A stretch of DNA of 24,238 nt from a virus. The translations under genes were made by a program, and so were the position numbers. Positions 5,641 to 18,542 of the stretch are shown piece by piece. The stretch lies in IMG/VR virus record IMGVR_UViG_3300038566_000114, positions 1 to 24,238 of that record; one strand, 5' to 3'. The notes under the pieces are model-generated. The model searched no databases. It was given only the letters and a program-made list of their open reading frames with translations, and was not told the DNA's origin. The number at the start of each line of letters is the position of its first letter. The stretch's first letter is position 1.

Positions 5641-8600
5641 CTACTTCTCCGAAGGGAATCCTTCAGTAACTCTTTCAGCACCACGAACCCACCACAGGTT
5701 TGTGACAGGCATGATACGCTTGAGATTCCTGATCTGGGACTCTGTAGGGCGTTCCCCATTTGCCAGAGCCTTCCCAATACCATATGCGGTTGAGAAGGTT
5801 CTGTCTAGGAATCCTAGAGCAGGGGCATCCAAGGTTGACTGAGCACCACCATAACCGGCGGCACCAAGCTGGAGAAGACCTGCCACTGGGTTGAACGAAC
5901 CCCAGAGTGGGGCACGAGCCAGTATGATAGCAATGTTCTTCTCGGGCTCCTCTGTCCACTTTTCCATAGCCTCGTCAATAGTGAGACCGTTGTATACCGT
6001 GTCCCGGTACATCTGGTTCAATATTTCTGAGGCAAGCCATGTTGCAAAGAACGCAGCCTGCTTGTGGTACGCCATAGACCCCACACGGGACATTGTAGCG
6101 GCTTGGAAAGCCATAGCCCACGAGGTAAAGGTAGTGAGCAGGTTGATCCAAGGGCTGTCACCAAATGCTCCTGAACTGGATGCCTTGGTAAGTGCAGAGG
6201 GTGTAGCAATGAGATTCTGAGAATCATGCCACGCCATTCTACGCAGTCTCTTGTCAAGTTCCTGGGCAAGAACCCTGTCTTGTCCGTCTAACTGTAAGAT
6301 CAAAGACCTCATGCGGTCAGGATGTGATAGAGCCTTACGATCTTTGGCGTTGATCTCCTTGGCAATACGGAGCATATCAGGGTCAAACAACCCATAGTGC
6401 TTCATACGCCTGAATCTGTCAATAGGAATGCCGATCTCTCGTGCAATCCGCTTGGCTTCCTTGATATCAGGGATGACACGCTGCACATCCATAGCGGCAA
6501 TCTTATCAAACTTTCTACGCACAGCCCATAGGTCACTATAGGTTGCATTGTAGTTCATGTGCTTTAGAGCACCAGTGCCGGGTCTCTCCAAAGAGACAAG
6601 TCGTGTGACATCAACAAGAAGCTGAGAACCCTTCACCCAGTTAGAGTTCTGATGCTCTTTACTCAGGTTAGCACCGGGGTGTGCAAACAGTCGGCTGGGG
6701 TACTGCTCAATAGCACCTTCAAACCCAAGACTCTTCGCATGGCCGGAGGATATGAAGTGCTTGAGGAAGTCACCCGTGTTCTGCACAAGGTTGACATAGG
6801 TAGCCGTTCTGGAGATAACACGGGGGGCTGTCATTACTCCGCCCTCTGAGGCAAGAATAGTTGGGCCAATGCCAGCAAGAGCCGCAGCGGATGTAGCACT
6901 GCCTAGTGTATAGGCAGCCCTCTGTCCCTCTGCCCTTTGCTTCATCCTGTGGGCATTGCTGAGGTCTGTAGTCTCGAAGATTTTTACAAGATCTTGTGCC
7001 TCTTTGTTCCCAGCAGCCATGTTCCTAAGTGCTTCAGTAAGCTCTCTCCAGGTGATCGTCTGCCCTGCGGCTTCCGAGATAGCAGACCCACGGTGTACAT
7101 TATACCCTGTGGACATCCTGTAACGGTGGATGATGCTGGTTGGGTCCAGTTCAATAGCACCTGTCTTCAGCACATCCTCAGACAGCAGCACCGCCTGCTC
7201 AATCTTCCTTGCCTTGTTGGACTGGACATAGTTGTTGACCTGCCGAGCCGCTGATGTATCCCCTCGGAATGGGGTATGGTAAGGGCTGTCAGCCATATTC
7301 GCATCAGGGTCGTGGCTGTAGTTCTTGGCCTGCTTACGCCAGATAGCAATCTCTGCCTCAGTCTTCAGAGACTCATCGAGAGCATTCAGATAGTCCTGAC
7401 GGTACTTCTCGTTGATCTCAGAGACCTTGTTAGGAATCAACATCTCACCAGTCACATCATCTACACGGGTAGAAAAGTCAGGTGGGACTTCCTTGGAGAA
7501 GATATGCCTAGGGGCTTCTGGGTCTTTGAGCAGATACCCAAGACGAGCCAGTGTATTGTTGTGTACATCGGCTGTCAGGATGTCAGCAGGCTTGTAGGCC
7601 CCACGAAGGTCCCTGTAGTATGATCCCACCATAGCAGACTCCATCTCTTCTGTGATGTTATCTGCGAGGTAAGTGGGGAAATAGTTGTCTTGGTAGTTCT
7701 CGATAACCCGATATTGGACACCCTGACGGCCCATATCATCAAAGTAGTCCCGCATCATACCGGAGACAACCTTGGTTTCTGGGCGAGCATCCTCTAGACC
7801 AGCAGCAGCACGGGCGTTGTTGATGAGGAGTTCACGCCCCACATCATCAGACCTGTCCTTAAGCATGGCCTCCTGCTGCCTCTGGAGGGGATCTACGATG
7901 CTAATCTCATCAGCCATTACCCTCTCAGCAGTGCTAAATGTCACCGTACCGTCGGGGTGTAGTAGTTTCTCATGTTCAGCAAGTGGTCCGTTGTCAATAA
8001 CACCAAATAGGCGGGCAATGACACGCTGAACCTTATCCTCGGAGGCCATAGCACGCTTGACCTTTATAGCCGGGGCCAAAGTGCCGGTAAGCTTACCTAG
8101 TTTGGAGTTCAGAATCCAGTTGTAGAGCCCATGACTGGGTGATGCTTCTACAACACCCTCATCACTAAACAACTCCTGAACCTTGGCTACACGGGCCTTG
8201 TGGGTAGGCTGTGAGGCAATGGGGATATCCTCTGCCTTTCTACGCATAGCATCCACAAAGCCCTCAACCTTGACAGCATTGCCTGTATCATCCAGACGGA
8301 ACTGCTTTACAAGGTCATCGTGGTTCAGTTCAGCCTCTCGCAAAGCCCGTCGAGCCTTGGAGATTGCCTTCTGATCCCCAGACTGTATAACCTTCTTCAG
8401 AGCCTCTGTAAGTTCCCATACCTTCTTCTTAGCCAAGGACATCTTGGTAGGGGGAATCTCACCAGAGTCCATTGCTCTTTGCAGAGGAGATATCGTGTCA
8501 CCATCAGCGACCTTTGTAAAGGACATAAGCTCATCATGCGTAGGTAGGCCTTCACGGATATACCTTGCAACGGTCTGAGCAGTCTTGGAGTCCTCGATCT

Positions 8601-12916: not shown

Positions 12917-15397
12917 TCAGCCTCCTTGTGCTGTAGGTTGGTAGGCCCCTGCCTGTAGATCCCCAACAAACTCCATGTTGGTGATCTCTGACTGGAAGGG
13001 GGTATCGTTGAATAGTCGAATCTCCGTGTCGGCACCTCGCCCACGGATATGCACACGCTTGCGTGCAGATGCCTGAAGACCTGTAGCCCCAAGGATCATA
13101 GAACCAATACGGTTGGCAAGGTATCGTGTCGTCTTTGCGGGTCTACCCGGTGGAGTCACAATGACATCCAGAGTCGTAGTATTCCGCATGTAGATTTCCA
13201 TATAGAGCAACTGTAGGGCACCAAAGATGGTTTGCCCCTGCTGGTCCTTGGGATAAATCTTGGATAGGGTGCAGTCCATGTTGTAGGACTTGCCTACAAA
13301 GCAGGGGTGGGCAGAGAAGTTACCGTTGATCGTCAGGGTTGTTACACCCCCTGATGATCCAGTAGTCGCTGCTACCTTGATACCCTTCTGATTCCCCCAC
13401 CCAGCACCAAGAACAACAGTGTCCATATCGGCATCCAGGAATGGGAGAGTAAAGGTGGTCTGCTTTGTGGATGAACTGTAGACACCCGTGAGGCTCTGTT
13501 TACGATCTATGAGGAGTCGGTAACTTAGAGACCCGTTGGCATCACTCTCGTTATTAGGGGTAGCCAGAGGCATAGACTCCAACCAAGTATCCGTACCGTC
13601 TGTAAACATGATGTACAGCAGGTCTGATACAGTCTTGTAGCCAAGGATGGTGAATGAGTTATCAAACACCCACCTACACCAAGCATTCTGAATCTTCTGG
13701 TTGATGTTCCAGTGTGAGAATAGGCAGTAGATGGTATTAGGTTCATCACGAGAACTACACAACACAATGTTGTTGTTCTCACTGGCAGCAAACCTGTCTA
13801 GGTTGTCGGGGATGTAACGCTCCACATGCTTTGTAGAGTTTACACCGATGTTTGCATCAGCATCATAGTTGTAGAAATACTCCCACACATAGGAGAAGCT
13901 ACCCTGATTACTGGAGAAGTACAACTGCTGGCCTATCCGTGTTGGGTATGCCTGAGAGTCAGATTTGTAGTTGGATGTGGCAATGAGGTTCGTGTCTTTA
14001 GGGGTAAAGGCATTCTGAGACTTAACCTCAAACTGTTGTCCACCGTCTGCGAACACAACCATCGTCTTATCGAAAGGAACCATGAACTGCACATCGTGGA
14101 TATCCTCTGCTGCCAAAGGTAGGTCAATAGGATCTGAGTCCACAACATTCGTCCAGTCATCCACCCACAGGTTGAACAAGTCACCTGCTTGGGAGGCAAA
14201 GACATACGGGCCTGCCCCAAACCACATCCTATCCTGGAAGATAGAGATGTCCTGAATGGGGTTGCCGATGAACTCTGGGCCTGGGTTTGTAATATCATCC
14301 CCAGACATGCGATCATTCCACTTAATCACATCTAGTGAGAAGGTATCTGCATCCTCATCGTAGATAATACGAATAGGGAATGATCCGGCCTCTACCTCGT
14401 TACCGTCCTCTGGAGGAGGCACACGGGTATACCAAGGACCTGACTCATCAGGGCTCGTGTGGAGAGCAGCAATGATCTTGTAGAAGCCTACAGGATAGCC
14501 GTTCTGAGCCGACACAAGGTTGATATAATCATCTACATCCCACTGGCTGTTTGTGTATGTTCCACCGTCATTGGGGAACCGCATGACAGCCTGTGCGGAG
14601 ACATTGCTGTAGGATGGGGCTACGCCACCGAGATGGGTGGGGGCGGTCTTATTGACAATGAAGGTAGTATCACCGAATGTCAGCAGTCGATACTTTGTAC
14701 GGGCATCACCACTACCGTACCGTAGGTACGCTATGGTCTTGGGGATAGCCGTGGTAAGACTGTGTGCTACGCCTGCTACAGACCCAGCGGACAGTGTGAT
14801 CTCTGTGCCAGCCAAGGCATTGGCCTCACTACTGGCAAGCTGGACACGGTTGGCTGTCGTAGACTTGATGACATAGTATACCGTAGTGTCCACAAGACCT
14901 GTGGGGGCTGTGCCACCGCCGTCTGAATAAGTAACAGCATCCCCTGTCTCTATGTAGTCATAGAAGTAGGGGGTGACTGCAATCTCATCTGAGGCAACAA
15001 TGAGTACACTACTGTCGGTAAGGTCTAGACTTGTAGCGTCCAGTACTGGCGTGGATTCAATACTCACTGTCTTCTTTGCCCCAGATGAATCAAATATCTG
15101 GAGTCTGTCTGCCTGCACGGTCTGCTGATCGTCAAGCATGACAAAGAACCTGTCACTGTTGCTACGATCTATCCCGTGAAAGAACCACTTAGTAGAGGCA
15201 TCACCAGAAAGATCAAGGTATCCAGTGTCGGTGTCTGGAGAGTTGATGTAAGTAGTACCAAACCTTTTCTCAAGACCTCGCTGTAGAAACATGTTAACAT
15301 TGTCTGCATCCTCCAACTGGTTAGGGTCTCTGAAAGGTTCTGGTTGTCTGGATACACCCCCGGTCAGCGGGGACGCAGGGATTCTCCATTGTGGCAT
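12917..15397 (-). CDS. Tail tubular protein B (T7 gp12-like, nozzle)
   Basis: 826 aa, against 794 in T7 gp12, the hexameric nozzle of the short tail. The N-terminus (MPQWRIPASPLTGGVSRQP) is typical: these proteins open with a segment about lack of bias to Q-P and contain LEDADNVNMFLQRGLEKRFG, matching the conserved gp12 N-terminal pattern. Later signatures include DISIFQDRMWFGAGPYVFAS, a beta-propeller-like strand typical of the family. The ATG at 15397 overlaps the methyltransferase stop as TAATG with GGAG upstream; a GTG 12 nt earlier is possible but less likely. In T7-like phages this gene normally follows tail tubular A directly; here a methyltransferase lies between them. Confidence 0.93.
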   Translation of the reverse strand: MPQWRIPASPLTGGVSRQPEPFRDPNQLEDADNVNMFLQRGLEKRFGTTYINSPDTDTGYLDLSGDASTKWFFHGIDRSNSDRFFVMLDDQQTVQADRLQIFDSSGAKKTVSIESTPVLDATSLDLTDSSVLIVASDEIAVTPYFYDYIETGDAVTYSDGGGTAPTGLVDTTVYYVIKSTTANRVQLASSEANALAGTEITLSAGSVAGVAHSLTTAIPKTIAYLRYGSGDARTKYRLLTFGDTTFIVNKTAPTHLGGVAPSYSNVSAQAVMRFPNDGGTYTNSQWDVDDYINLVSAQNGYPVGFYKIIAALHTSPDESGPWYTRVPPPEDGNEVEAGSFPIRIIYDEDADTFSLDVIKWNDRMSGDDITNPGPEFIGNPIQDISIFQDRMWFGAGPYVFASQAGDLFNLWVDDWTNVVDSDPIDLPLAAEDIHDVQFMVPFDKTMVVFADGGQQFEVKSQNAFTPKDTNLIATSNYKSDSQAYPTRIGQQLYFSSNQGSFSYVWEYFYNYDADANIGVNSTKHVERYIPDNLDRFAASENNNIVLCSSRDEPNTIYCLFSHWNINQKIQNAWCRWVFDNSFTILGYKTVSDLLYIMFTDGTDTWLESMPLATPNNESDANGSLSYRLLIDRKQSLTGVYSSSTKQTTFTLPFLDADMDTVVLGAGWGNQKGIKVAATTGSSGGVTTLTINGNFSAHPCFVGKSYNMDCTLSKIYPKDQQGQTIFGALQLLYMEIYMRNTTTLDVIVTPPGRPAKTTRYLANRIGSMILGATGLQASARKRVHIRGRGADTEIRLFNDTPFQSEITNMEFVGDLQAGAYQPTAQGG

Positions 15398-15963
15398 TAT
15401 GTGCTCCACTGTTCGGCCATTGCCTTTGCAATGCCGGTGTATGTTTTACTTCTAAGCTTCCACCGATCTTTGGATGGGGGAAGTTTATGCAATCTTTGTT
15501 CTCTTCCTGAAACAATGTCTGTTGGGAATAGCTTTGGAAGACCTTTTAGCCAAAAGCATGTTGCTTTCGTTTCTCCGTGTCCAAACATCCAAGGTTGAAC
15601 AACTTGATCTTGTCTTCGGCCAATAATCTCAACAGCATACTTGTGCATGATTGGATTCTCAACACAGATACGATCGCAAGGAAGATCGAGCATACGCTTA
15701 AAAAACAACGCTGCTTCTTCCATCTTCTGCCTGCGGCCTTCTTGTTCTTTCAGCCACCGGACCCCAGAGTTGCACAAATATGTGCATGGGGGATGACAGA
15801 TCAACAAATCAAATCCAGTCCAGTCCTGCTCAAAGCAATCGCCTTGGATATGAGGACCGTCGATGTCACTGGGAAGTAGGTCACAGGACACAGCTTCATG
15901 TCCTTTCCTAATAAAAGCATTCCTTACAACACCACTATACTCACACAGTACTCCTACTTTCAT
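15397..15963 (-). CDS. C5-cytosine methyltransferase-like protein inserted in the tail cassette
   Basis: 188 aa. Motif I-like VLCEYSGVVRNAF with acidic CDLL (residues 5-30) suggests SAM binding; HPPC at 57-60 resembles the PC motif IV of C5-cytosine methyltransferases with C60 as the catalytic candidate; CVENP at 100-104 resembles the ENV motif VI; the C-terminal YTGIAKAMAEQW resembles motif X. The protein is much shorter than a typical C5 enzyme (over 300 aa), leaving little room for a target-recognition domain. It could protect phage DNA against restriction. GGACAGGAG precedes the ATG. The sequence appears more AT-rich than its neighbours, which suits acquisition by transfer, although composition was judged by eye. 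An N4 or N6 specificity cannot be excluded. Confidence 0.7.
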   Translation of the reverse strand: MKVGVLCEYSGVVRNAFIRKGHEAVSCDLLPSDIDGPHIQGDCFEQDWTGFDLLICHPPCTYLCNSGVRWLKEQEGRRQKMEEAALFFKRMLDLPCDRICVENPIMHKYAVEIIGRRQDQVVQPWMFGHGETKATCFWLKGLPKLFPTDIVSGREQRLHKLPPSKDRWKLRSKTYTGIAKAMAEQWST

Positions 15964-15981
15964 CTACTCCTGTCCTTCCCT

Positions 15982-15996
15982 AGCATCTAGGATGCT
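15982..15996 (-). other. Short stem-loop between tail tubular A and the methyltransferase
   Basis: AGCATC and GATGCT form a 6-bp stem with a 3-nt loop directly at the tail tubular A stop codon. No U-run follows. It may mark the junction where the methyltransferase gene was inserted, or reduce read-through; weak evidence. Confidence 0.3.
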
Positions 15997-16601
15997 TATC
16001 GTGGTCCTCTGAAGCCAACACGGTTTCTCTGGGTTCCCCAGCCTGTGTTGCCATTGAAGTTCTGGTTATAGTTTGCGTTACGGCTTCTGGCATCGTAAGC
16101 CTTAGCCCGTGCCTGGGCCCTCTGTAGACGCTCTGCTAAGAAGGCATCCATCTCCCGGCTACGTTGTGTCTGCATCTGATAGTTGCGGGCAGCGGAGGCC
16201 ATGATCCATTCCTGGATAGCGGTGGGGATGTCTTCAAAGTCAAGTTTGTAGGTGATCTTGAGTTCCACATACTCATCGTCTGGGAATGTGAATCTGTTGT
16301 TGTAGTTATCGTAGAGGAACTTACCCCTCTGTACATAATCACAGTGCAGGTTCCCGTTCCAAGGAACAAGATCAAGGATATTATCTGACAAAGAGATTTT
16401 ATTGTTCGCATCCTTGTAGAGTTTCTTGACTTCTGTGTTGAAGCTGAGGCCCCTGCTCTGTATTTTCAATATCTCTTTGTCAAGGACTGATTCGGCTAGG
16501 GAGACATCGTTTGTGCCATCAGACACCAGCGTTGCTACTGGCTGTTCTCCCGATGCCTCTAGCATCTCATTTACGGCATCTAGTCTCGTGTATGCTGGCA
16601 T
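15996..16601 (-). CDS. Tail tubular protein A (T7 gp11-like, gatekeeper)
   Basis: 201 aa (T7 gp11: 196 aa). It forms the dodecameric ring between portal and nozzle. The N-terminus MPAYTRLDAVNEMLEASGEQPV is characteristic of the family (TxLDAVNxML), followed by SLAESVLDKEILKIQSRG and a C-terminal helix rich in Arg and Gln (LAERLQRAQARAKAYDARS). The start at 16601 has GGGAG at proper spacing; an upstream in-frame ATG at 16634 lies in a terminator stem and has no ribosome-binding site. Two tandem stem-loops precede the gene. Confidence 0.93.
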   Translation of the reverse strand: MPAYTRLDAVNEMLEASGEQPVATLVSDGTNDVSLAESVLDKEILKIQSRGLSFNTEVKKLYKDANNKISLSDNILDLVPWNGNLHCDYVQRGKFLYDNYNNRFTFPDDEYVELKITYKLDFEDIPTAIQEWIMASAARNYQMQTQRSREMDAFLAERLQRAQARAKAYDARSRNANYNQNFNGNTGWGTQRNRVGFRGPR

Positions 16602-16620: not shown

Positions 16621-16650
16621 AAAACGCAGAACACGACTTTCGCCGTGTTC
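16621..16650 (-). terminator. GAAA-tetraloop stem-loop before tail tubular A (second of two)
   Basis: In minus-strand RNA GAACACGGC pairs with GTCGTGTTC around GAAA, 9 pairs including one G-U, followed by TGCGTTTTA. It looks like an intrinsic terminator with a short U-run and stands 16 nt downstream of a second, similar stem-loop. T7 has its only class III terminator just after the capsid gene, a comparable place. Confidence 0.7.
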
Positions 16651-18480: not shown

Positions 18481-18515
18481 ATATAAAACCCCTCACTATA
18501 TTTCTATAGCAAGGG
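18481..18515 (-). terminator. GAAA-tetraloop stem-loop between scaffold and capsid genes
   Basis: In minus-strand RNA CCCTTGCTATA pairs with TATAGTGAGGG around GAAA: 11 continuous pairs including a tandem U-G/G-U, followed by GTTTTATAT. It lies 27 nt after the scaffold stop codon. A terminator or a processing site that separates scaffold from capsid message is likely; the stem is AT-rich near the loop, so termination may be partial. Confidence 0.65.
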
Positions 18516-18542
18516 ACGAAAGATAGGAATTTATAATGTTGT

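Follow-up and report, generated by a model that had tools for sequence, protein, structure and literature searches.

Methylases encoded by phages are usually proposed to protect against host restriction, as set out in PMC6918029 and PMC10504331, the latter adding that a methylase may act on superinfecting DNA. One family of such enzymes, PHROG 757, is common and known in phages, and its carriers include five T7-like phages (P-SSP7, 9515-10a, NATL2A-133, Pasto, and MedDCM-OCT-S45-C18) that share a nozzle domain with the virus described here and have methylases 43–59% identical to its own. In all five, the methylase lies before or among the genes for RNA polymerase and replication, at least ~14 kb away from the nozzle (tail tubular B) gene: it is the second gene of P-SSP7 (PSSP7_002), ahead of RNA polymerase, and lies between terminase and RNA polymerase in 9515-10a, between SSB and endonuclease in Pasto, and between primase and DNA polymerase in MedDCM-OCT-S45-C18. 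Family members in structural regions occur in phages of other kinds, at junctions other than tail tubular A/B. The gp12 gene of Bcep1 sits behind the major head gene, and the notes on neighbours in the Bcep1 record imply that Bcep43 and Bcep781 have no gp12 homologue there; gp063 of phage D6 (27% identical over 70%) sits behind baseplate genes and ahead of a P1 dmt-like gene. A cargo gene of P-SSP7, psbA, has promoters and terminators in common with the capsid genes, according to a review (PMC10452541). In the accessible portions of the open-licence literature we found no description of this family's biochemistry or of a methylase at the tail tubular A/B junction.

A methyltransferase-like gene between tail tubular A and B

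The window, by which we mean the whole stretch of DNA analysed, consists of a single uncultivated virus record, 24,238 bases in length. In its T7-like late region, on the minus strand, genes for portal, scaffold, capsid, and tail tubular A are followed by the methylase-like gene and then by those for tail tubular B, internal virion proteins, what is probably a fibre, and terminase. Gene order and T7 biology, and not profile matches, are the basis for the names scaffold, capsid, fibre, and internal proteins. The scaffold-like gene is separated from the capsid-like one by a terminator-like hairpin of 13 pairs that has a T-rich tail (18488–18517, minus strand).

The first-pass annotation had described a 188-aa gene with HPPC and CVENP motifs that separates the two tail genes and is joined to tail B by a TAATG overlap, and this is borne out by the open reading frame, by the junction itself, and by domain matches to the flanking genes (PF17212 and PF25675). 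Tail A lies upstream of the methylase and tail B downstream (Table 1). Nothing resembling a terminator was reported in the spacer that precedes the methylase, promoter-like matches around the methylase gene are at chance level (6 found against 6.6 expected), and a repeat search for phage promoters yielded no convincing series.

Table 1. Features of the tail A–methylase–tail B interval (window positions)
Feature	Position	Strand	Basis
Tail tubular protein A	15996..16601 (ATG start; listed GTG start at 16634)	-	PF17212, E 2.5e-33; phrog_446
Spacer between tail A and methylase, 32 bp	15964..15995	-	AGGAG at 15971-15967, putative ribosome-binding site
C5-methyltransferase-like gene, PHROG 757, 188 aa	15397..15963	-	ORF from ATG to TAA, family match, predicted fold, invariant residues
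GGAG, putative tail B ribosome-binding site within the methylase gene, 6 nt before the tail B ATG	15404..15407	-	Read directly; function putative
TAATG, overlapping methylase stop and tail B start	15395..15399	-	Read directly
Tail tubular protein B / nozzle	12917..15397 (ATG overlaps methylase stop)	-	PF25675, E 1.6e-108; phrog_457

Tail tubular A and B had been said to be normally adjacent in T7-like phages, and we measured their spacing in four annotated phages and at 80 loci in viral contigs that a tail B alignment had identified. The two genes are adjacent in all 82 measurable pairs (78 of the 80 contig loci, two being excluded for want of a tail A match, and 4/4 phages), with gaps of -30 to +10 bp against 598 bp in the window. 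The first-pass annotation would have been refuted had relatives all carried the gene here with normal composition; a methylase lies between tail A and B in 0/82 of these pairs. They come from distant relatives (24–34% in tail B), and the insertion could still be shared by a closer, as yet unseen one. Scans of viral contigs found no close relative of the whole virus (tail A by itself at one distant locus, and no locus with only tail B).

Starting from the methylase, tail A or B was found near the homologue at 0/80 viral and 0/80 genome loci, within flanks of up to 6 kb, beyond which tail genes could be missed. Among the 25 most frequently matched of 141 neighbour families (123 neighbours scanned), 18 are of DNA replication or recombination, 2 are endolysins, 1 is CRISPR-associated, 4 are unnamed, and none is a head or tail family. 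Seven further methylase-carrying records (L018, L019, L020, L027, L046, L051, and L052) had been labelled T7-like from an exonuclease match; we dropped that label, as the nozzle domain was found in 0/20 methylase-carrying records searched, these seven included, several of the 20 being short fragments (a control search found the domain in 7/8). Late-region placement of the methylase is uncommon for T7-like phages but not unheard of, Bcep1 and D6 being precedents.

Composition and origin of the gene

The gene had been judged by eye to be more AT-rich than its neighbours, and computed GC contents agree: 0.448 for the methylase against 0.485 for tail A (from its ATG start) and 0.499 for tail B. 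GC content as low as this occurs in 3.5% of 567-bp windows, and because some other small genes in the window are lower (0.426 and 0.437), GC alone is not decisive. Codon usage of the methylase is the most atypical of the 21 genes (z -4.92, the next being -2.56), with GC3 of 0.40, and points to acquisition of the gene from elsewhere. In a tree, the window's methylase does not cluster with those of P-SSP7, 9515-10a, Pasto, or S45-C18, which suggests separate acquisitions; the tree is rough, with long branches, and the window's protein falls in no well-supported group.

A gene of differing codon usage, in a single uncultivated virus record of this length with no close whole-virus relative in the viral contig scans, could also have been joined to the tail genes by misassembly. 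However, the TAATG and ribosome-binding-site junctions are clean, and the gene, like the rest of its genome, is without the tetramers ACGT, AATT, and GCGC (0 seen against 3.3 expected, a value of 0 being reached in 2.1% of synonymous shuffles), whereas none of 80 homologous genes lacks all three and these carry a mean of 6.3 sites per gene. The shared purge makes a fresh graft or a misassembly unlikely, and we consider an artefact highly improbable. It does not date the arrival of the gene, since the donor may have been a phage of the same host and purged beforehand. A decaying, inactive gene might be suspected from its long tree branch (0.71), but its frame is intact and its product has all 25 columns that are invariant in a 53-row homologue alignment (of which it is itself one row), and we think decay very unlikely.

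Family, predicted fold, and conserved motifs

The product matches the PHROG 757 "DNA methyltransferase" profile over its full length (E 1.8e-59, residues 1–187 against positions 15–219 of 247). It has no match among Pfam, NCBIfam, or PADLOC families, including PF00145, the canonical C5-cytosine methyltransferase family, which is matched by 3/53 homologues at E up to 1 (best 0.013). By tblastn, 158 of 50,697 phage records contain the family, each at under 60% identity to the window protein; among 72,556 plasmid records, the number is 106. Scans of viral contigs found at least 589 stretches encoding it (best identity 72% among the matches listed), and those of bacterial and archaeal genome contigs found 134. 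Viral contigs L040 and L053 each have two closely spaced family copies with the same orientation (6001–7941 in both), perhaps with two specificities.

An AlphaFold2 model of the protein (pLDDT 93.1, pTM 0.89) was compared with solved structures. The best 50 Foldseek matches listed all come from C5 DNA methyltransferase entries (top E 6.4e-7), and a second structure aligner gave Z scores of 14.2 to DNMT3B and 13.7 to M.HhaI, with ~180 of the 188 residues aligned. The first-pass annotation had named absence of a SAM-binding fold as a second refuting condition; the predicted fold is that of a SAM-dependent C5-methyltransferase. Sequence searches of solved structures returned nothing for the single protein and chance matches only for the alignment. 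Residues P58, P59, C60, E102, P104, and G177 are among those invariant in all 53 aligned homologues. In a profile alignment, HPPC pairs with the catalytic PC motif (FPC) of 17 C5 enzymes (local E 8.2e-6, spanning motifs I to IV); the comparison was usable with these 17 and weak with three. The invariant E102 lies in ENP, whose pairing with ENV of motif VI was seen only in a forced global profile alignment.

Likeness to the canonical enzymes (M.HhaI, M.HaeIII, and DNMT3A/B) consists in the predicted fold and the PC catalytic motif, with EN as a candidate counterpart of their second motif. The differences are as follows: the protein has 188 aa compared with 324–327 aa for M.HaeIII and M.HhaI, it has no Pfam score, its motif I reads CEYSG and not the canonical FxGxG, and its recognition domain is reduced to ~27 residues, which separate the last core strand from the C-terminal helices and fall close to where the model is least confident. 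The description as C5-methyltransferase-like therefore stands as to predicted fold and PHROG 757 membership, but not as to a canonical C5 enzyme; by resemblance, the protein would work as C5 methyltransferases do, as a member of PHROG 757 and not of PF00145.

A homologue from PA11 (L251, 2995–3555) has a ribonucleotide reductase gene on either side and thymidylate synthase upstream, and some family members might act in nucleotide metabolism. This setting and the near absence of a recognition domain would fit a member of the C5-methyltransferase fold whose substrate is not duplex DNA but, for instance, RNA or a nucleotide. Homologues usually lie beside replication genes, and this one between reductase genes, which leaves room for other substrates. 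However, the best fold matches listed are all DNA methyltransferases and the named neighbour families are mostly of DNA replication or recombination; we regard a non-DNA substrate as improbable.

Loss of short palindromes

The genome is strongly depleted of several palindromic tetramers. The window contains one ACGT against 65 expected, three AATT against 38, and four GCGC against 32, and synonymous shuffling of the 20 other genes gives z values of -9.7, -8.9, and -7.1, respectively. AGCT, CGCG, and TCGA are also low in synonymous shuffles. None of 160 other loci in which enough sites were expected (48 + 53 + 54 + 5) avoids AATT to an observed/expected ratio of 0.2 or less. Tetramer loss of this kind suggests restriction pressure, exerted by several four-base restriction systems in the hosts. 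Of the 53 loci of at least 7.5 kb among the T7-like contigs that tail B identified (L087–L166), 22 have almost no copies of one or more palindromic tetramers, mostly GATC or CATG; such loss is therefore frequent in these phages, though at different sites. We considered whether CpG depletion in the window (O/E 0.53) is a footprint of the methylase, and rejected it, as the tail B-found contigs have a median of 0.46 and 32/53 are at or below 0.53.

The methylase is not the answer to these four-base systems, since AATT holds no cytosine and both ACGT and GCGC are still purged; it may serve against other restriction systems. The purge of ACGT and GCGC despite the enzyme also fits an active C5 methylase that does not protect progeny DNA, and instead targets DNA of the host or of superinfecting phages, or that merely rides along at a place where insertion did no harm. 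Action on superinfecting DNA is one of the two proposals in PMC10504331, and homologues occur in many unrelated settings, as would a roaming cargo gene. Its catalytic residues are nevertheless kept and the gene shares the site purge of the genome, which suggests that it has been kept in use, and we hold a role other than progeny protection to be rather unlikely, though a serious candidate.

Proposed role

The methylase observation is real and was accurately described, the gene's place being odd and its kind ordinary; beyond sequence, fold, and placement, we infer the late timing, the activity, DNA as the substrate, and protection as the benefit. With moderate confidence, we propose that the gene is an acquired orphan C5-methyltransferase, cotranslated with the tail genes, that probably methylates progeny DNA against restriction. 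An orphan C5-cytosine DNA methyltransferase-like cargo gene of PHROG 757 would have been acquired by a T7-like phage and settled at the tail A/tail B junction. Its translation would fall between those of tail A and tail B, the tail B ribosome-binding site lying inside the gene, and so, judging from gene order, it would be made late with the virion proteins. Most likely with S-adenosylmethionine as the donor, C60 as the nucleophile, and E102 in support, the enzyme would methylate cytosines of replicated phage DNA before packaging, and the packaged DNA would then resist some restriction enzymes of the next host cell.

Insertion is favoured by the strict adjacency of the tail pairs elsewhere together with the most atypical codon usage in the window, and DNA methylation by the PHROG 757 match, the C5 fold, the invariant P58, P59, C60, and E102, and the HPPC/PC pairing, although the nearly missing recognition domain and the CEYSG form of motif I weaken the latter. 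Protection is favoured by the genome-wide loss of short palindromes as a sign of restriction pressure, and weakened by the identity of the most avoided sites, AATT included, the purge of ACGT and GCGC indicating no protection by the methylase there. More speculatively, a low-specificity C5-methyltransferase almost free of a recognition domain, made in step with the nozzle and perhaps carried in the virion, could mark progeny broadly at or just before packaging, with late timing as its working principle and not an accident of insertion; we think this doubtful.

The locus shows that a cargo gene can be accommodated within the tail A/tail B pair of T7-like phages, which is otherwise strict, and it offers a natural case for asking whether a phage DNA methylase is effective if expressed late. 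If active, the enzyme would represent a minimal C5 methyltransferase family in which the recognition domain is almost absent. In other respects, the biology is familiar in kind.
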